Origin: Bacteroidetes bacterium SCGC AAA795-G10
Lineage (GTDB): Bacteria > Bacteroidota > Bacteroidia > Flavobacteriales > Flavobacteriaceae
Direction of reading: 5' to 3'
DNA: 64,000 nucleotides
NCBI GenBank assembly: GCA_003130815.1
Contig: QFDA01000005.1
Coordinates: forward strand, 1 to 64,000
Made by a program: the position numbers and the translations under genes. The notes under the pieces were generated by a model. It was not told the origin of the DNA. It was given only the letters and a program-made list of their open reading frames with translations, and searched no databases. Shown here in pieces: positions 50,935 through 57,908 of this stretch (within the stretch, counting starts at the first letter, position 1; every line of letters starts with the position of its first letter).

Positions 50935-51612
50935 ATGAAGGTTCAAATAAATTCTAATTGGGAAAAACTTTTAAACTCTGAATTTAGTAAGCCTTATTTC
51001 ACTGATTTAGTCGATTTTGTTAAAAACGCGTATAGCAAAACTGTTTGCTATCCACCTGGTAAAGATATTTTTAGAGCTTTCAACGAATGTCCATTAGATG
51101 ATGTTAAGGTTGTTATTATTGGTCAAGACCCATACCATGGTCCAAAACAAGCTCACGGTTATTGTTTTTCGGTTTCCAATTCAATTCCTCATCCACCTTC
51201 ATTAATTAATATTTTTAAAGAGATTGAAACGGATTTAGGACTCGAGTATCCAAAAAGCGGTGACCTGACTCCATGGGCAAGGCAAGGTGTCTTTTTACTA
51301 AATGCAACATTAACTGTTGAGGCCAATAAAGCGGGCAGTCATCAAAAAATAGGATGGGAAACATTTACTGATTCGGTAATTAGAATAATTTCTGAGAAAA
51401 AGGAAAATATTGTTTTTATGTTGTGGGGTAGTTATGCAAAACAAAAAACCAACTTAATAGATAGTCTTAAACATCGTGTTCTGAAAAGTGGTCATCCGTC
51501 ACCACTGAGTGCTAACAGAGGCTTTTGGTTTGGGAATAAACATTTTAGTAAATGTAACAGCTACTTAAAAGAGGTAGGTAAAAATGAAATAAATTGGTCA
51601 CTAGATAAGTGA
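50935..51612 (+). CDS. ung: uracil-DNA glycosylase
   Basis: Family 1 UDG that removes uracil from DNA. The 225-residue product has the water-activating loop GQDPYHGPKQAHG (from residue 63), the proline-rich PHPPSLINIF loop, the uracil-binding LLNATLTVEANKAGSH, and the DNA-intercalating GHPSPLSANRGFWFGNKHFS. Complete and typical. It is the last ordinary gene before the lipoprotein array. Confidence 0.97.
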   Translation: MKVQINSNWEKLLNSEFSKPYFTDLVDFVKNAYSKTVCYPPGKDIFRAFNECPLDDVKVVIIGQDPYHGPKQAHGYCFSVSNSIPHPPSLINIFKEIETDLGLEYPKSGDLTPWARQGVFLLNATLTVEANKAGSHQKIGWETFTDSVIRIISEKKENIVFMLWGSYAKQKTNLIDSLKHRVLKSGHPSPLSANRGFWFGNKHFSKCNSYLKEVGKNEINWSLDK

Positions 51613-51709: not shown

Positions 51710-52321
51710 ATGAAAAAGATATTTGTAACTGCGTCATGTTTTATAATATTTTCGTGTTTTAAAACAGATATAGTTCAATTCGAGAAAAAAAATAAGCTTG
51801 CCCCTATTGATGCGAGTGGACTTCAATATGGTGGTCTTGGGGGTATGACAGACACAGCAATAATTTGTAATCCAGCGGGTCTTGGAAGAAAGTTTTGTCG
51901 ATTTTTACGAAAATATGATAATACATTTTGGGCAGATACAGAAAATTATTATAGTGACTTTTCGGATATACAATTTTTAAACTCTGAACATTTTATATCC
52001 TTCTTTGATATTAGTAATGATGTATCATATTGCAAAGGATGGAGACCAGGTGAAAATACTTATGATGGAATAAAGTGGAATATAGAAATCAAAAGAGATG
52101 AGGAGGATATATTTTGGTTTGATTATGAGTATTATGGGACAAGTCAAGAAATTGAATATACTATACTGTATAAATATGAAGTAATTGATAGTTTACTTCA
52201 TTTTTCTAGTTCTGCTGATGAAAATTTTATTTTTAGCCCTTCAGAAAAAAATTATTCAAAAGATTCTATTGATACGAGTGAAATAGTTGAAATGGAAGGA
52301 TGTACGTTTTACGGAGCATGA
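51710..52321 (+). CDS. array lipoprotein, copy 1
   Basis: I do not recognise a named family. The 203-residue product has a lipoprotein signal ending FIIFSCFKTD. The mature part begins with a variable region, longest in this copy (to about residue 60), a cysteine pair in CNPAGLGRKFCRF, then the common core: RKYDNTFWADTENYYSDFSD, HFISFFDISNDVSYCKGW, DGIKWNIEIKRDEEDIFWFD, YKYEVIDSLLHFSS, ending EGCTFYGA. The core is rich in aromatic and beta-type residues, suggesting a beta-sandwich or small barrel. Its stop overlaps the start of copy 2 (ATGA), which implies coupled translation. Confidence 0.9.
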   Translation: MKKIFVTASCFIIFSCFKTDIVQFEKKNKLAPIDASGLQYGGLGGMTDTAIICNPAGLGRKFCRFLRKYDNTFWADTENYYSDFSDIQFLNSEHFISFFDISNDVSYCKGWRPGENTYDGIKWNIEIKRDEEDIFWFDYEYYGTSQEIEYTILYKYEVIDSLLHFSSSADENFIFSPSEKNYSKDSIDTSEIVEMEGCTFYGA

Positions 52322-52878
52322 AAAAAATTCTTTTACTAATTCCGTTTATTGTAATTTCTTCTTGCTATAAATCAGATATAGTACAATCCCAAACAGCTAA
52401 TACAGACCCTGCCAGTATGCACAATGGACAAGTTTACCCAACGGCTCCTCGTAGCTATACAAATTTTTGTGCTGTCCCAAAAAATTGTAAGTTTTTATTT
52501 AAATACGATCACACATTCTGGTCAGATACAGAAAATTATTCTAGTGATTTTTCAAGTGTCAGATTCTTAAATCTTAATAATAATTTTATATCCTTTTATA
52601 ATATTGATAAAGATATTTCATATTGTACAGGATGGAAAAAAGGAGATAATACTTCTGGTGCGATAAAATGGAATATTAAAATCAAAAAAGATGAGTGGGA
52701 TGAGTTTTGGTTTGACTATGATTATTATGGGACAGACCAAGAAATTGAATACACCATAAACTATAGATATGAAGTAATTGATAGTTTACTTAATTTTTCA
52801 AACTCAGAAGGAGATTCTTTAATTTTCTATCGAACTGATGAAATAAAAGATTTTGTTGATTGCATGTTTTATAATTAG
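52318..52878 (+). CDS. array lipoprotein, copy 2 (shortened C-terminus)
   Basis: Second paralogue, 186 residues from the ATG at 52318, which overlaps the copy 1 stop. The lipobox is VISSCYKSD. The N-terminal cysteine pair is FCAVPKNCKF; the core has KYDHTFWSDTENYSSDFS, DISYCTGW and DEFWFDYDYYGTDQEIEYT. The C-terminal region is shorter than in the other copies: the segment usually reading FHPSDKNYSK...DTGEIIE is reduced to FYRTDEIKDF before the last cysteine (VDCMFYN). It is the most divergent copy in the core. An in-frame start at 52300 is not needed. Confidence 0.88.
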   Translation: MKKILLLIPFIVISSCYKSDIVQSQTANTDPASMHNGQVYPTAPRSYTNFCAVPKNCKFLFKYDHTFWSDTENYSSDFSSVRFLNLNNNFISFYNIDKDISYCTGWKKGDNTSGAIKWNIKIKKDEWDEFWFDYDYYGTDQEIEYTINYRYEVIDSLLNFSNSEGDSLIFYRTDEIKDFVDCMFYN

Positions 52879-52954
52879 AGCAGACTAAGAATTAATAATA
52901 TCAATTTAATTAATCTTAAATCAATAAGTAAATTTGAGTCAAAATCATAAATCA
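52876..52954 (+). promoter_or_regulatory. shared upstream region before copy 3
   Basis: This gap has the elements AGACTAA, TTTAATTAA and CATAAATCA directly before the ATG, which recur before copies 6 and 7 and before the gene at 55536. Within it TAAATTTG at 52929-52936 matches the -7 consensus TAnnTTTG, 18 bases before the start. A promoter for copies 3 to 5 is likely; I see no good -33 element. Confidence 0.45.
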
Positions 52955-53554
52955 ATGCGAAAGTTATTCATTAGTTTTTTATGTTTTGTTATGTTGTCGT
53001 GTTTTAAAACAGATATAGTTCAATATGGTTCAAAAAATTTAGATCCTGCCACGTTCGCTAGTGGACAACAACTTCCTACTGCGCAACAAAGTTATACTCG
53101 ATTTTGTAATCCAGGAGGTTTGGGTAGAAAGGGCTGCAAGTTTTTAGCCAAATATGATAATACATTCTGGTCAGATATCGAAAATTATTATAGTGACTTT
53201 TCTGATGTACATTTTTTAAATTGGGTATATTTTGTATCCTTCTTTGATATTAACAATGATGTTTCATATTGCAAAGGATGGAGAACAGGTGAAAATATTT
53301 TAGATGGAAAAAAATGGGATATAAAGATCACAAAAGATGAGTGGGATGAGTTATGGTTTGACTATGATTATTACGGTACTAGCAATGATATTGAATATAC
53401 CATAACTTATAAATATGAAGTAATTGACAGTTTACTTCATTTTTCAAATACAGAGGGTCAAGAATTTATTTTCTACCCATCTGATAAAGATTATTCAAAA
53501 GATATTGTTGATACTGGTGAAATAATTGAATTAGAGGGATGTATGTTCTACTAG
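52955..53554 (+). CDS. array lipoprotein, copy 3
   Basis: Third paralogue, 199 residues. The lipobox is CFVMLSCFKTD and the post-lipobox stretch IVQYGSKNLDPATFASGQQ is almost identical to copy 4. The cysteine pair is FCNPGGLGRKGCKF; the core includes KYDNTFWSDIENYYSDFSD, NDVSYCKGW, DELWFDYDYYGTSNDIEYT, YKYEVIDSLLHFSN, and ends IELEGCMFY. I chose the ATG at 52955, which follows the conserved AAATCA, over the in-frame TTG at 52934, which overlaps the promoter-like element. Confidence 0.88.
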   Translation: MRKLFISFLCFVMLSCFKTDIVQYGSKNLDPATFASGQQLPTAQQSYTRFCNPGGLGRKGCKFLAKYDNTFWSDIENYYSDFSDVHFLNWVYFVSFFDINNDVSYCKGWRTGENILDGKKWDIKITKDEWDELWFDYDYYGTSNDIEYTITYKYEVIDSLLHFSNTEGQEFIFYPSDKDYSKDIVDTGEIIELEGCMFY

Positions 53555-53577
53555 TTTTTAGTACTTATCATTAACAG

Positions 53578-54177
53578 ATGAAAAAAATATTTGTAGCTTC
53601 TTTATATTTAGTCATGATTTCATGTTTTAAAACAGATATAGTTCAATATGGTTCAAAAAATTTAGATCCTGCCACATTCGCTAGTGGACAACAACTCCCA
53701 ACAAAACCAAAAGACTTAACATACTTCTGCAATCCAGCAGGTCTTGGAAGAAAAGGTTGTAAATTTTTATCTAAATATGACGGTACAATATGGGCAGATA
53801 AAGAAAATTATTATAGTGACTTTTCAGATATACAATTTTTAAACATTGCATATTTCATATCCTTCTTTGATATTAATAATGATGTTTCATATTGCAAAGG
53901 ATGGAGACCAGGTGAAAATAATTATGATGGAATAAAATGGAATATAAAAATCAAAAAAAATGAATGGGATGAGTTTTGGTTTGATTATGAATATTATGGG
54001 ACAAGTCAAGAAATGGAATATACCACAACTTATAAATATGAAGTAATTGATGGTTTACTTCATTTTTCAAATACAGAGGGTCAAGAATTTATTTTCCACC
54101 CATCTGATAAAAATTATTCAAAAGATATTGTTGATACTGGTGAAATAATTGAATTAGAGGGATGTATGTTCCTCTAG
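53578..54177 (+). CDS. array lipoprotein, copy 4
   Basis: Fourth paralogue, 199 residues, starting 23 bases after copy 3 and preceded by TATCATTAACAG, which also precedes copy 5. The signal ends YLVMISCFKTD. After the copy-3-like IVQYGSKNLDPATFASGQQ come the cysteine pair FCNPAGLGRKGCKF and the core (KYDGTIWADKENYYSDFSD, NDVSYCKGW, DEFWFDYEYYGTSQEMEYT, YKYEVIDGLLHFSN), ending IELEGCMFL. The 5' half looks recently homogenised with copy 3; gene and gap together make exactly 623 bases. Confidence 0.88.
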   Translation: MKKIFVASLYLVMISCFKTDIVQYGSKNLDPATFASGQQLPTKPKDLTYFCNPAGLGRKGCKFLSKYDGTIWADKENYYSDFSDIQFLNIAYFISFFDINNDVSYCKGWRPGENNYDGIKWNIKIKKNEWDEFWFDYEYYGTSQEMEYTTTYKYEVIDGLLHFSNTEGQEFIFHPSDKNYSKDIVDTGEIIELEGCMFL

Positions 54178-54200
54178 TTTTAAATAATTATCATTAACAG

Positions 54201-54791
54201 ATGAAAAAAATATTTGTAGCTTCTTTGTGCTTAATACATTTTACTTGTTATAAGACAGATGTAATTCAACACGGAACAGCAAATTTAGATCCACGTCAAT
54301 GGGCAAGTGGAGGACAAATAAACAGTTTATCGCAACAATATAACGTTTTCTGTGCTGGAGTAAAGACTTGCAAATTTCTATACAAATATGATGATTCAAT
54401 GTGGGCAGATACAGATAATTATTACAGTGAGTTTTCGGATATAAAATTTAAAAACGCAGCTACATATTTTATATCCTTCTTTAAAATTGATAATGACGTT
54501 TCATATTGTAAGGGATGGCAAAAAGGTGAAAATATTTATAATGGAATAAAATGGGACATAACTATCAAAAAAGATGAGTGGGATGTTTTTTGGTTTGATT
54601 TTGATTATTACGGGACTGGTCAAGAAATTGAATATACTATAACTTATAAATATGAAGTAATTGATGGTTTACTCCATTTTTCCAACTCTGAAGATCAATC
54701 ATTTATTTTTCATCCATCAAAAAAAAATTACTCAAAAGAATTAATTGATACAAACCAAATAATTGAACAAGATGGGTGCTTATTTTTATAA
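54201..54791 (+). CDS. array lipoprotein, copy 5
   Basis: Fifth paralogue, 196 residues. Its first codons (KKIFVASLCL) are nearly those of copy 4, then the lipobox is IHFTCYKTD and the region after it is different (VIQHGTANLDPRQWASGGQ). The cysteine pair is closer together, FCAGVKTCKF, with a shorter loop. The core has KYDDSMWADTDNYYSEFSD, NDVSYCKGW, DVFWFDFDYYGTGQEIEYT, YKYEVIDGLLHFSN and ends EQDGCLFL. The N-terminal mosaic pattern supports recombination among copies. Confidence 0.88.
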   Translation: MKKIFVASLCLIHFTCYKTDVIQHGTANLDPRQWASGGQINSLSQQYNVFCAGVKTCKFLYKYDDSMWADTDNYYSEFSDIKFKNAATYFISFFKIDNDVSYCKGWQKGENIYNGIKWDITIKKDEWDVFWFDFDYYGTGQEIEYTITYKYEVIDGLLHFSNSEDQSFIFHPSKKNYSKELIDTNQIIEQDGCLFL

Positions 54792-54793
54792 TT

Positions 54794-54863
54794 AGGATAA
54801 ACTAAAAATAATAATCTATAATTTTAATTAAGTTTATAAATTATATTTATTAATCATAAATCA
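54794..54863 (+). promoter_or_regulatory. shared upstream region before copy 6
   Basis: The gap before copy 6 contains AAACTAAA, TTTTAATTAAGTTTA and ATCATAAATCA next to the ATG, matching the layout before copy 3 and the regions at 55460 and 56827. TATATTTA at 54842-54849 is one base off the TAnnTTTG consensus. Confidence 0.4.
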
Positions 54864-55445
54864 ATGAAAAAGTCACTAGCAGCTGCCTTATTGAGTTTTT
54901 TAATTTCTTCTTGTTTTAAAACTGATGTTAGACAATATGAGTCTTGGAATCAAGATCCATTAACTAAAGCAAGTGGTTATCAAGTTAATCGCTTACCGAA
55001 ACAATATAATTCATTTAGTGGTGCTAGATTTTTAAGCAAATATGATGATACAATGTGGGCAGATACAGATAATTATTACAGTGACTTTTCAGATATCAAA
55101 TTTGAAAGAAGTGGGCCAGTATTTATATCATTCTTCAACATTAATAATGATGTGTCATATTGTAAAGGATGGAAAAAAGAGGAAAATATTTATGATGGAA
55201 TAAAATGGAATATTACATTTAAAACGAATGAAGAGGATGTTTTATGGTTTGATTATGATTACTATGGAACAGGTCAAGATATAGAATATACTATAACTTA
55301 TAAATATGAAGTTATTGATGGTTTACTCCATTTTTCAAATACAGAGGATCAAGAATTTATATTCCATCCATCAGACAAAAAATACTCAAGAGAATTAATC
55401 GACACAGGTGAAATAATTGAACAAGAAGGTTGTTTGTTTTTGTAA
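54864..55445 (+). CDS. array lipoprotein, copy 6 (N-terminal cysteine pair absent)
   Basis: Sixth paralogue, 193 residues. The lipobox is FLISSCFKTD followed by VRQYESWNQDPLTKASGYQ. Where copies 1-5 have a cysteine pair this copy reads NSFSGARFLSKYDD, so both cysteines and the loop are gone. The other two cysteines remain (NDVSYCKGW and EQEGCLFL). The core has DDTMWADTDNYYSDFSD, DVLWFDYDYYGTGQDIEYT and YKYEVIDGLLHFSN. The 3' part, from about 55285, is nearly identical to copy 7. Confidence 0.88.
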   Translation: MKKSLAAALLSFLISSCFKTDVRQYESWNQDPLTKASGYQVNRLPKQYNSFSGARFLSKYDDTMWADTDNYYSDFSDIKFERSGPVFISFFNINNDVSYCKGWKKEENIYDGIKWNITFKTNEEDVLWFDYDYYGTGQDIEYTITYKYEVIDGLLHFSNTEDQEFIFHPSDKKYSRELIDTGEIIEQEGCLFL

Positions 55446-55459
55446 TTGAGGTAGACTAA

Positions 55460-55529
55460 ATCATCGACATATCCTCTTAATTAAGTTTAATGACTAATTT
55501 GTATATTGTAATTTATTAACCATAAATCA
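55460..55529 (+). promoter_or_regulatory. duplicated upstream region before the gene at 55536
   Basis: About 70 bases here (with CATATCCTCTT, ATTAAGTT, TAATTTGTATATT and CATAAATCA) align with 56827-56896 upstream of lipoprotein copy 7, with roughly a dozen mismatches by eye. The downstream gene is unrelated to the lipoproteins, so the same control region serves two kinds of gene, or a lipoprotein copy once here has been replaced. Confidence 0.6.
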
Positions 55530-55535
55530 ATTAAA

Positions 55536-56264
55536 ATGAAAAATATACTTTTTACTTTTTTACTATTACCTTTTTTTGCAACTGCTCAAGTAGCGGTATT
55601 TCATCCTGTTAAAATTCCTCAGGATCAAGTAGAAAAATTTTTGGAAATTGAAACTAATTATAGCCAAAAAGTAGCTCAGAACGCAGTTAAAAAAGGTGAT
55701 TTACTTTGGTGGGCATTAATGAAATCTTTTAATGCCACAAGTAAAGACTATAATTATATGTGGGTGAATGTTTATAAAGACATAGATGCTACAGTTTCAT
55801 CATCGGCAAGCTGGTGGACAAATTCTGAAGAAGTTGTTGGAGTTAAGCCACAAATACTCTATGATGGCTGGAGTGGTGGTGAAGCTGACCGAAGGTACTT
55901 CTATCAAATTAAAGGGCAAATTGATTCGGGTGTAGAAGGAAAATTTGTGATTTTCAATTTTGCTTCACCAAAAAATATAGATAAAGTAATTTCTGATAGT
56001 AAGAATTATGTTACCCCTAGATTTAAGAAGGTAATGAAATCTGCAGGAATGACTGGTTGGGGCTATGCAACTAAAATTACTCCACAAGGTCAAGACTATG
56101 CATCATTTATGACTTACGACGCTTTTGACTCAATGTCCAATTTAATGAAACATTTGTCAGGAGAGGGCGCAGCAATGAAATCACTAGATTTAGATAAACT
56201 TGAAAGAATTAATTGGGAATCACGATATATTCTAGAGATTGTGTCTTCAACTGCATCAAACTAA
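55536..56264 (+). CDS. exported protein of unknown function, two ferredoxin-like halves
   Basis: Exported protein of 242 residues with a signal peptide (NILFTFLLLPFFATAQ). I do not recognise a named family. The mature part looks like two repeats in the style of dimeric alpha-beta barrel (ABM/EthD-like) domains: VAVFHPVKIPQDQVEKFL...YNYMWVNVYKDID in the first half, and KFVIFNFASPKNIDKVI...DYASFMTYDAFDSMSNLMKH in the second, joined by a segment with WWTNSEEVVGV and GGEADRRYFYQIKGQ. That fold assignment is inference from pattern only. It sits inside the lipoprotein array, behind an upstream region shared with those genes. Confidence 0.8.
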   Translation: MKNILFTFLLLPFFATAQVAVFHPVKIPQDQVEKFLEIETNYSQKVAQNAVKKGDLLWWALMKSFNATSKDYNYMWVNVYKDIDATVSSSASWWTNSEEVVGVKPQILYDGWSGGEADRRYFYQIKGQIDSGVEGKFVIFNFASPKNIDKVISDSKNYVTPRFKKVMKSAGMTGWGYATKITPQGQDYASFMTYDAFDSMSNLMKHLSGEGAAMKSLDLDKLERINWESRYILEIVSSTASN

Positions 56265-56303
56265 AATACAAAGATTTGTTACTTACAACTGTTTACATAA
56301 TAT

Positions 56304-56337
56304 GCACCTCTCCTATATAGATCTTATAGGAGGGTGC
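56304..56337 (+). other. strong stem-loop between the genes at 55536 and 56358
   Basis: GCACC-T-CTCCTATA, loop TAGATCT, TATAGGAGGGTGC: about 13 base pairs with a single bulged T. No T-run follows, so it is not a standard terminator on the plus strand. The 3' arm holds AGGAGGG, a perfect Shine-Dalgarno-like string, buried in the stem and 20 bases before the ATG of the next gene. It could be an RNA control element, a processing site or a recombination scar. Confidence 0.65.
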
Positions 56338-56357
56338 TAACTAATGTTCCATTAAAA

Positions 56358-56810
56358 ATGAAAAAAATATTATTTATCCTGGCTGCAGTATTTTTCACTG
56401 GATTAGTTTTTTCACAAGAAAACAAAATTCTAGAAAATCAAATTGTAAAACAATGGATGGATTATTCAAAAGGTTTTGAGTATAAGGATTACGAAAGAAT
56501 TGCAAGTCATTTTACATATCCTGCAATTTTTAACAATTCAACTCCAATAATAGTGAAGAACAAAAAAATGATGATCGATGCTTACAAATCAGTTAGGGAA
56601 AATGTTCAGAAAGATTATAAATATTCACTAATTGATAAGTGGAAATTAATAAATATTACAAACGAATTTCTAATATTAGATGCTCATTATTCTAGATACA
56701 ATTCAGATTATAAGCAAATCTTATCTGGCAGGGGATTATATTTTTATAAGAAACTAAATGGTAACTGGTTTCTTAAAGAGGTCACTACTCTTTCACAAAA
56801 TAAACTTTAA
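56358..56810 (+). CDS. exported NTF2/SnoaL-like protein of unknown function
   Basis: Small exported protein of 150 residues from the ATG at 56358, with a signal peptide (KKILFILAAVFFTGLVFSQ). The mature part looks like a DUF4440/NTF2-like cone fold: a helical start (QIVKQWMDYSKGFEYKDYERIASHFTYPAIF), a middle with IIVKNKKMMIDAYKSV, and beta strands ending RGLYFYKKLNGNWFLKEVTTL. No catalytic residues can be assigned. The GTG at 56334 is in frame but lies inside the stem-loop, so I preferred the ATG. Confidence 0.8.
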   Translation: MKKILFILAAVFFTGLVFSQENKILENQIVKQWMDYSKGFEYKDYERIASHFTYPAIFNNSTPIIVKNKKMMIDAYKSVRENVQKDYKYSLIDKWKLINITNEFLILDAHYSRYNSDYKQILSGRGLYFYKKLNGNWFLKEVTTLSQNKL

Positions 56811-56826
56811 CCACAATTTAAATTCA

Positions 56827-56896
56827 GATCATCGGCATATCCTCTTCATTAAGTTCAGGGAGTAATTTGTATATTTAGGTCAATAACTATAAATCA
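56827..56896 (+). promoter_or_regulatory. duplicated upstream region before copy 7
   Basis: Second copy of the region at 55460-55529, ending TATAAATCA directly before the GTG start of copy 7. TATATTTA at 56870-56877 is one base off the -7 consensus and 19 bases from the start, similar in position to TAAATTTG before copy 3. Confidence 0.55.
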
Positions 56897-57475
56897 GTGT
56901 CAAAGCCTTTTTTTCTTTTTTTGTTCATATTTATGTTTTCTTGTTATAAAACAGATGTAGTGCAATATCAGACTTGGAATTTAGATCCTGTAACTAAAGT
57001 AAGTGGAATGCAAGTTAATCACGTACCACGGCAATATACTGTTTTCTATGGGAATAGATTTTTAAGTAAGCATGATGAAACAATTTGGGCAGACACTGAA
57101 AATTATTACAGTGATTTTTCAGATATAAAATTTGAAAGAAATGGCCCAGTATTTATATCATTCTTTAACATTGATAATGACATTTCATATTGTAAAGGAT
57201 GGAAAAAAGAGGAAAATATTTATGATGGAATAAAATGGTTTATAACCATTAAAAAAGACGAGGAAGATGTTTTATGGTTTGATCTTGATTATTACGGCTC
57301 TAATCAGGAAATTGAATATACTATAACTTATAAATATGAAGTAATTGATGGTTTACTTCATTTTTCAAATACAGAGGATCAAGAATTTATATTCCATCCA
57401 TCAGACAAAAAATACTCTAGAGAATTAATCGACACAGGTGAAATAATTGAACAAGAAGGTTGTCTGTTTTTTTAA
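56897..57475 (+). CDS. array lipoprotein, copy 7 (separated, GTG start)
   Basis: Seventh paralogue, 192 residues, beyond the two inserted genes. The start is GTG at 56897, in the place where ATG follows AAATCA in copies 3 and 6. The lipobox is FIFMFSCYKTD, then VVQYQTWNLDPVTKVSGMQ. Like copy 6 it lacks the N-terminal cysteine pair (YTVFYGNRFLSKHDE) but keeps NDISYCKGW and EQEGCLFF. The region after about 57315 is almost identical to copy 6, so copies 6 and 7 are the most recent duplicates or have exchanged sequence. Confidence 0.88.
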   Translation: MSKPFFLFLFIFMFSCYKTDVVQYQTWNLDPVTKVSGMQVNHVPRQYTVFYGNRFLSKHDETIWADTENYYSDFSDIKFERNGPVFISFFNIDNDISYCKGWKKEENIYDGIKWFITIKKDEEDVLWFDLDYYGSNQEIEYTITYKYEVIDGLLHFSNTEDQEFIFHPSDKKYSRELIDTGEIIEQEGCLFF

Positions 57476-57499: not shown

Positions 57500-57844
57500 T
57501 TATCCTCCAACACGTTTTATTTTGTGTCCCATATCCTGAAGTATTTCAATTATTTTATCCCTAAAATTTCCTTGTATGATTATTTCTCCATTTTTTATAC
57601 TTCCACCAACACCAACTTTATTTTTAAGTGTTTTAGCAAGATTTTTTATTTCACTAGGACTACCTGAAAATCCTTTTAAAATTGTGACTGTCTTTCCAGC
57701 TCGCCCTTTATTACTAAAATGTGCTTCAAGATTTTGCGAAATAAAAACAGGTGCTGAAATACTTTGGTCTTCCTTAGGAGTGGGCTGAAGATTGTCAAAT
57801 TGAATTTTACCTAAATCTTCAAGTGAGTTGAATTTCTTTGACAT
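57500..57844 (-). CDS. SUI1/eIF1-like translation initiation factor (YciH family)
   Basis: Bacterial member of the eIF1/SUI1 family, 114 residues from the ATG at 57844. The C-terminal SUI1 domain has KAGKTVTILKGFSGSP (as RAGKTVTILKGF), LKNKVGVGGSIKNGEIIIQG and the end DMGHKIKRVGG. In E. coli the relative YciH influences initiation fidelity; in Bacteroidota the role is untested. The frame extends to 57856 but the start at 57844 gives the usual SKKFNSLEDL. Divergent from the DinB-like gene. Confidence 0.9.
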   Translation of the reverse strand: MSKKFNSLEDLGKIQFDNLQPTPKEDQSISAPVFISQNLEAHFSNKGRAGKTVTILKGFSGSPSEIKNLAKTLKNKVGVGGSIKNGEIIIQGNFRDKIIEILQDMGHKIKRVGG

Positions 57845-57908
57845 ACTATAATTCAAGTTGAGGGACTAAAATAGTATTTTTATACATGAAATTTAATTTT
57901 TAAAAGTT

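Follow-up and report, generated by a model that had tools for sequence, protein, structure and literature searches.

What do seven similar lipoprotein genes, set close together in the genome of an uncultured marine member of the Flavobacteriaceae, do for the cell, and how did they come to lie there? The genes occupy positions 51710-57475 of the window, the 64,000 nucleotides analysed here (positions 1 to 64,000, forward strand, of contig QFDA01000005.1 of Bacteroidetes bacterium SCGC AAA795-G10). Their products form a real protein family which is without a match in the libraries searched, is arranged in a manner of known kind and moves horizontally. Tentatively, with a probability of about 0.37, the array is read as a horizontally mobile bank of neutralising envelope lipoproteins.

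The seven open reading frames (ORFs) are all on the + strand, encode 186-203 residues each and are named LP1 to LP7. Together with two genes for secreted proteins they make up an array of nine co-oriented genes of 150-242 codons. Lipoprotein genes were assigned by alignment and tree, leader elements by profile matches, and the two flanking genes by family search and their adjacency in relatives. The features of the locus are as follows.

50935..51612, + strand: uracil-DNA glycosylase superfamily gene (named ung here), flanking the insertion site on the left
51710..52321, + strand: LP1 lipoprotein, class A; its 3' end overlaps the LP2 start (ATGA)
52318..52878, + strand: LP2, class B; about 11 residues on the C-terminal side are absent; start chosen on alignment fit, the ORF listing having an ATG further upstream at 52300
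52955..53554, + strand: LP3, class C; the ORF listing has an upstream TTG at 52934
53578..54177, + strand: LP4, a separate group in the tree
54201..54791, + strand: LP5, class D
54864..55445, + strand: LP6, class E, without the N-terminal Cys pair
55460..55537, + strand: leader/promoter-like repeated element, 5' of the 55536 gene
55536..56264, + strand: secreted protein of 242 aa, outside the lipoprotein family, without Pfam match
56358..56810, + strand: secreted protein of about 150 aa, outside the lipoprotein family, without Pfam match; the ORF listing gives a GTG start at 56334
56828..56899, + strand: leader/promoter-like repeated element, 5' of LP7
56897..57475, + strand: LP7, class E, GTG start, without the N-terminal Cys pair
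57500..57856, - strand: SUI1-family gene, flanking the insertion site on the right

That these are seven related lipoprotein genes with one common core, as the original prediction from the sequence had it, is borne out by the ORFs, by the alignment and by a 300-nt unit that a DNA repeat finder recovered in seven copies (the six others being 70-85% identical to the reference copy). Its description of the genes as a tandem array holds for LP1-LP6, which are contiguous, but not for LP7, which is separated from them by the two unrelated secreted-protein genes. The lipoproteins can be aligned over their full length, with 58-79% identity to the 53578 copy and a mean column identity of 72%. A search of the assembly from which the window comes (88.7% complete, 1.93 Mb) gave no eighth copy; the next match had an E-value of 0.58.

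For wider comparisons, 44 copies from this and other genomes (referred to by G numbers for genomes, G000 being that of the window, and L numbers for loci) were used for the ratio of nonsynonymous to synonymous divergence (dN/dS, omega), the gene tree, pairwise dN/dS and Cys counts. This set is without a copy in G019 bearing an in-frame TAG (L048) and without partial copies, mostly at contig ends (L038, G019 C18, G037 C51, G011 C16 and C6, and G031). A set of 38 copies was used for divergence among the window paralogues and between the window and L037. Putative signal peptidase II lipoprotein signals, which had been predicted for all seven proteins, are recognised in every copy, with a lipobox Cys in 44/44 that is preceded by S (40), T (3) or C (1); within the window the preceding residue is S in six of seven copies and T in LP5. 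The terminal EGC given for all seven is exact in five only (LP2 ends in VDC and LP5 in DGC), while its Cys is present in 7/7. Likewise, of the strings described as common to the core, YKYEVIDGLLHFSN is exact in four of the seven copies but not in the rest. C106 and C196 occur in all 44 copies; both Cys of an N-terminal pair are present in 32 copies, neither in 12, and a single one never. As these Cys occur in pairs, they fit two putative disulfides and an oxidising compartment. A count of residue propensities gave 36% strand and 12% helix for the core, which is weak evidence. The surface-export signal of Bacteroidota lipoproteins is described, in the part of the source available, as C-X-K-(D/E)2-X (PMC5080379). 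At the corresponding positions, K is found at +3 in 41/44 copies and an acidic residue at +4 in 0/44 and at +5 in 43/44.

No named family had been recognised for these proteins, and database searches agree. Pfam gave no convincing match for the seven copies or a wider set of 38 (best E 0.045, spread over five families), neither DUF576 nor Lipocalin_4 being among the families matched up to E 1 with the 38 members. With the seven copies, no NCBIfam match was better than E 0.15, and PADLOC gave no match for the three of seven members tested. Nothing convincing was found in PHROGs with four members tested (one weak match, function not known, at E 0.0024 to a 74-position profile, and three at E 0.17-0.25) or among PDB sequences (best E 0.062, collagen chains). 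The top-ranked results of a literature search held no publication on such a lipoprotein family, which is not proof of absence in print. A Lipocalin_4 lipoprotein gene is located convergent to the family's copy in Aquimarina G490 (L058 9747-10151). Lipocalin_4 lipoproteins are, like those of the array, small, from Bacteroidota and strand-rich by weak predictions; a profile comparison with this neighbour aligned the signal peptide only.

The family was identified in 11 of 38 genomes of the genus (the window's own included), among 100 relatives; many of the 27 genomes without it are incomplete. Matches at E 0.003-0.07 in six of these relatives outside the genus were taken as chance, and none of 394 other genomes sampled from the phylum carries the family (E up to 1e-4). 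A pattern-based scan of one genome per species (84,980 species) returned 13 loci, all in records of uncultured Bacteroidetes or Flavobacteriaceae except one in Aquimarina algiphila M91; the copies of G490 and G011 were not returned, and their genomes may be outside that collection. Two of 52 Aquimarina genomes carry the family, with one copy each, which rules out the strict restriction to one lineage that had been proposed. Copy number varies among close genomes, being seven in the window and L037 and five in L041. The in-frame TAG of the G019 copy (L048 2016-2591) makes it a likely pseudogene, suggesting loss in progress.

The site occupied by the array in the window can be compared across the genus. 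Match coordinates of ung and SUI1 were compared over the 38 genomes; both genes are present in 32 and on the same contig in 31. They are convergent and adjacent in 27/31 (match ends ranging from a 3 bp overlap to a 511 bp gap), and the lipoprotein array lies between them in 3/31, namely G000, G015 and G017. The array is therefore an insertion into an old gene pair in the window's clade. In G028 and G031 the array lies beside the ung-SUI1 site and is cut by contig ends. The site is empty in G001, G011, G019 and G037, which carry copies elsewhere, while neither ung nor SUI1 was found in G014 and G027, which also carry copies elsewhere. Array neighbours thus vary, being ung/SUI1 in five genomes and other genes at the remaining loci. 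In G012 another insert, of 3.5 kb and with a gene for a 674-aa protein, lies between ung and SUI1 (L072 758-4254). The junction may be prone to insertion. The position after LP6 is a second variable slot, at which the 55536 and 56358 genes of the window are replaced in relatives by another pair, one gene for a secreted protein of 231 aa and one for a DUF3500 protein (L037 9962-11874 and L040 3241-5153). The single copy in G019 and that in G027 each have nearby a similar gene for a membrane protein of 245 aa, recognised by eye (L039 10487-11224 and L042 5499-6236), and these copies may share an insertion region.

Ten genes flanking the array were searched for families. Those on the left encode a dicarboxylate symporter, a DCC1-like protein, a MutS domain V protein (named MutS2 here) and the uracil-DNA glycosylase. 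On the right are SUI1, a DinB-like gene (by eye, without Pfam match), YbjQ, peptidase M61, DUF2461 and a fructosamine-kinase-like gene. The ten include no toxin or secretion gene, in agreement with the original prediction, and no member of a lipase family; the two secreted-protein genes inside the array are without a Pfam match. The sheath family of type VI secretion systems was found in 0/38 genomes of the genus, but also in 0/14 control genomes, and the search is hence uninformative.

Evidence of horizontal movement comes from the gene tree and from synonymous divergence. The tree of 44 copies gives support to group A (with LP1), group B (LP2), group D (LP5) and group E (LP6 and LP7), and places LP3 and LP4 in two further groups whose mutual relation it does not resolve. 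Four of the groups, namely A, B, the LP3-type C and E, are found again in the distant species G001 and G014, arranged as E-A-B-C at quite different loci, the order A-B-C being common to the window, G001 and G014. Group D is confined to the window, G017 and G028. Between the window and G001 the proportion of synonymous differences (pS) is 0.40 for A, 0.56 for B, 0.47 for C and 0.42 for E, a moderate contrast with ung (0.75) and SUI1 (0.68). Eight pairs of Aquimarina and genus copies have a core pS of 0.20-0.53, while MutS2 is saturated at 0.75. This low synonymous divergence from the Aquimarina copies, set against a saturated MutS2, shows transfer between genera, and the family has moved horizontally. 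The lipoproteins of the two Aquimarina genomes differ from each other by a synonymous divergence (dS) of 0.10 and a nonsynonymous divergence (dN) of 0.16 (72% identity), as compared with 1.84 and 0.07 for MutS2 (88% amino-acid identity). Integrase pieces accompany two of the copies, one in G011 (L059; Arm-DNA-bind_5, divergent, at a distance of about 400 bp) and the one in A. algiphila (L049; Phage_integrase, below cut-off, at about 300 bp). The ends of the 3.7 kb A. algiphila contig (L049, NZ_VLNR01000138.1) are inverted repeats of about 125-130 bp, recognised by eye.

Purifying selection acts on all parts of the protein. A codon model, its topology fixed from a fast DNA tree, gave an omega over the 44 copies of 0.208 in the N-terminal mature part, 0.255 in the core and 0.225 in the C-terminal part. 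A conserved core under purifying selection had been predicted, with dN/dS near 1 named as the contrary result; the core value lies far from this. Diversifying pressure on the N-terminus, also proposed, is rejected for this genus, with an omega no higher than that of the core. Pooled values for the orthologues of the window and L037 agree (signal 0.25, N-terminal 0.15, core 0.18, C-terminal 0.13), and among the 36 of 946 pairs with a dS of 0.02-0.3 the median omega is 0.24. Total tree lengths are 23.5 for the N-terminal part, 9.1 for the core and 13.3 for the C-terminal part; the variable look of the N-terminus stems from a higher frequency of changes of both kinds, synonymous as well as nonsynonymous. 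The family thus serves as a warning: diversifying selection does not necessarily follow from an N-terminus that varies next to a core that does not, as omega can be equal where total change differs. A diversifying signal is possible only between the two Aquimarina copies, with 70.2 nonsynonymous and 10.8 synonymous changes and an omega of 1.6, which is not significant against neutrality (Fisher p 0.22); for a triplet of this pair and L042, omega is 0.82.

Recombination between copies is detectable. Pooled dS among the window paralogues is 1.30 for the signal, 1.44 for the N-terminal part, 0.63 for the core and 1.11 for the C-terminal part. Of the 4-fold sites in codons for the same amino acid, 61/198 differ in the core of the window copies, as compared with 75/140 before and 29/63 after it, and the direction is the same in G001, G014 and G015. 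The contrast at 2-fold sites in the window is smaller (0.24, 0.19 and 0.32). The synonymous pattern of the core in the window was reached by 1 in 1000 permutations. Two window pairs have significant runs of agreement, LP3 and LP4 within their N-terminal parts (global P 0.0105) and LP6 and LP7 within their C-terminal parts (P 0.0145), and two further runs are at P 0.045-0.048. In the tandem E pair of G015, 100 consecutive polymorphic sites agree through the core (0/2000 permutations), while G001 has no significant run and G014 has one (P 0.0475). These results are consistent with, and not proof of, a core homogenised by recombination, and constraint on synonymous sites may be an alternative cause of its low divergence.

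On the reading as a neutralising bank, the lipoproteins would be small, probably disulfide-stabilised proteins of the cell envelope, each residing in the outer membrane or on the surface of the cell. Each copy would bind a different variant of one type of incoming agent, most likely an antibacterial protein from neighbouring cells, and would neutralise it. The common core would provide a shared binding face, and the approximately 45 N-terminal mature residues specificity. Judged from the sequences, this role is suggested by the co-oriented short lipoprotein genes, the ten flanking genes free of toxins and the purifying selection, and further by the patchy presence of the family, its insertion between ung and SUI1, transfer, recombination, the integrase pieces and the paired Cys. 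Were it correct, small-genome, mostly uncultured marine bacteria would carry transferable immunity banks against antagonists; to our knowledge, such banks have hardly been described for these organisms. Tests of mobility and of function are feasible, given the empty ung-SUI1 site and the Aquimarina copies, one of which belongs to a named strain.

Several results weigh against this role. A partner toxin or phage protein was not identified, neither the profile libraries nor the PDB sequences linked the proteins to an immunity family by homology, and no recombinase, tyrosine recombinases included, was found among the window's tested flanking genes. The low N-terminal omega argues against an ongoing arms race in the genus. 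The AlphaFold model (38 rows) has ten strands at low confidence (mean pLDDT 37.2, pTM 0.30), and the putative surface-export signal is only half present. Moreover, the significant recombination runs of the window are in the N- and C-terminal parts, outside the core, and in G001 a SusC/SusD-like gene pair, recognised by eye, starts about 430 bp past the array (L044 8998-13611). These last two observations slightly lower the probability of a neutralising bank and slightly raise that of ligand binding.

The chief alternative, and a realistic possibility, is that the proteins bind ligands at the surface. Each copy would then be an adhesin or an accessory protein for binding, with a nutrient, glycan or surface of its own as target. 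Surface lipoproteins with binding roles are numerous in flavobacteria, and several groups of the family are old and under purifying selection, as would be expected of specialised binders; the G001 gene pair and the half-present export signal point the same way. On the other hand, the window genes read (47-63 kb) include no SusC/SusD-like gene, their one transporter being the dicarboxylate symporter, the array loci have differing neighbours, and the family is patchy and transferred.

It is improbable that the lipoproteins are phage-related envelope decoys or superinfection-exclusion proteins, blocking adsorption or DNA entry. Mobile, patchy, multi-copy lipoproteins with variable ends and integrase pieces near two copies would suit such a role, but no relative was found in 50,697 phage records or in two pattern-based scans of IMG/VR, and the three members tested had no PADLOC match. 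Plasmid records also gave no match to the family, and carriage by phages or plasmids was rejected on these searches. Least probable is that one housekeeping-like lipoprotein was amplified in tandem, neutrally or for dosage, into copies alike in partner. Recombination between copies, low synonymous divergence of the core and differing copy number in close genomes would suit this, but groups A, B, LP3-type and E recur in distant species, where redundancy alone would hardly have kept them, and 27/38 genus genomes, many of them incomplete, were found without the family.

A neutralising bank would work like the Lpl/TilA lipoproteins of Staphylococcus aureus and the orphan-immunity arrays of Bacteroidales, without membership in either. 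According to the available parts of two sources, Lpl/TilA genes form strings that vary in number, with recombination taking place within a conserved central region; a secreted lipase toxin is bound and inhibited by TilA, further copies having been proposed to cover toxin variants (PMC10730906, PMC9484751). As in these S. aureus lipoproteins (Lpl/Csa/DUF576), so far as those parts describe them, the present array consists of tandem, non-identical lipoprotein paralogues of variable number, with recombination between paralogues and a conserved central stretch. In contrast, no sequence relation was found (no DUF576 match), the host is a Gram-negative marine bacterium, no lipase toxin gene was found beside the array, and recombination through the core was seen for one copy pair of G015 only. 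The rAID arrays of Bacteroidales are described, in the part available, as widespread and as made up of short orphan-immunity genes in one orientation, with a recombinase and with motifs between the genes (PMC12247911). They resemble the present array in their co-oriented short genes (about 100-300 codons, here 150-242). Unlike them, the array has no recombinase among its tested neighbours, and most of its genes belong to a single lipoprotein family; homology to known immunity proteins was likewise not found, and a leader motif precedes only two of nine genes. As the defining sequence relation and gene content were found for neither system, the array is therefore assigned to neither, despite much common architecture and evolution. 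The type VII secretion immunity genes esaG/tipC share with it, in the portion of the source available, homology blocks alternating with variable regions and gain or loss of copies by recombination between paralogues (PMC9484751); no sequence relation to them was found, and the known secretion locus there has no equivalent here. By analogy, the array might be the equivalent, in Bacteroidota, of the tandem immunity lipoproteins of staphylococci: a new family of envelope lipoproteins forming a transferable bank that would protect marine flavobacteria against a polymorphic antibacterial agent, in which recombination would keep the core alike and the N-termini would hold the specificities, but this broader proposal is on balance unlikely.

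The leader element, of 79 positions, is found 5' of LP7 and of the 55536 gene, i.e. at two of nine array genes, and LP1-LP6 are without a match at E up to 1. In the window's own genome there are at least 22 matches at E up to 0.1, at least 18 of them at E up to 1.5e-5; these counts are lower bounds, with 150 of 4199 candidates scored, and 9 of the 22 matches were model-building sequences. Twenty of the matches lie in three places: two in the window array, nine at C44 249-261 kb and nine at C44 636-656 kb. Both C44 stretches of G000 are, by eye, rich in small secreted-protein genes, and the element, which marks three places rich in such genes, may define a co-regulated set. From its sequence it is read as a putative promoter, and a role in recombination is possible. 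Promoters of Flavobacterium psychrophilum have a TAnnTTGY box, according to the part of the source available (PMC9723704). In the element of the 55536 gene, TATATTGT fits this box, while that of LP7 reads TATATTTA at the box position and fits TAnnTTGY only at the neighbouring TAATTTGT.

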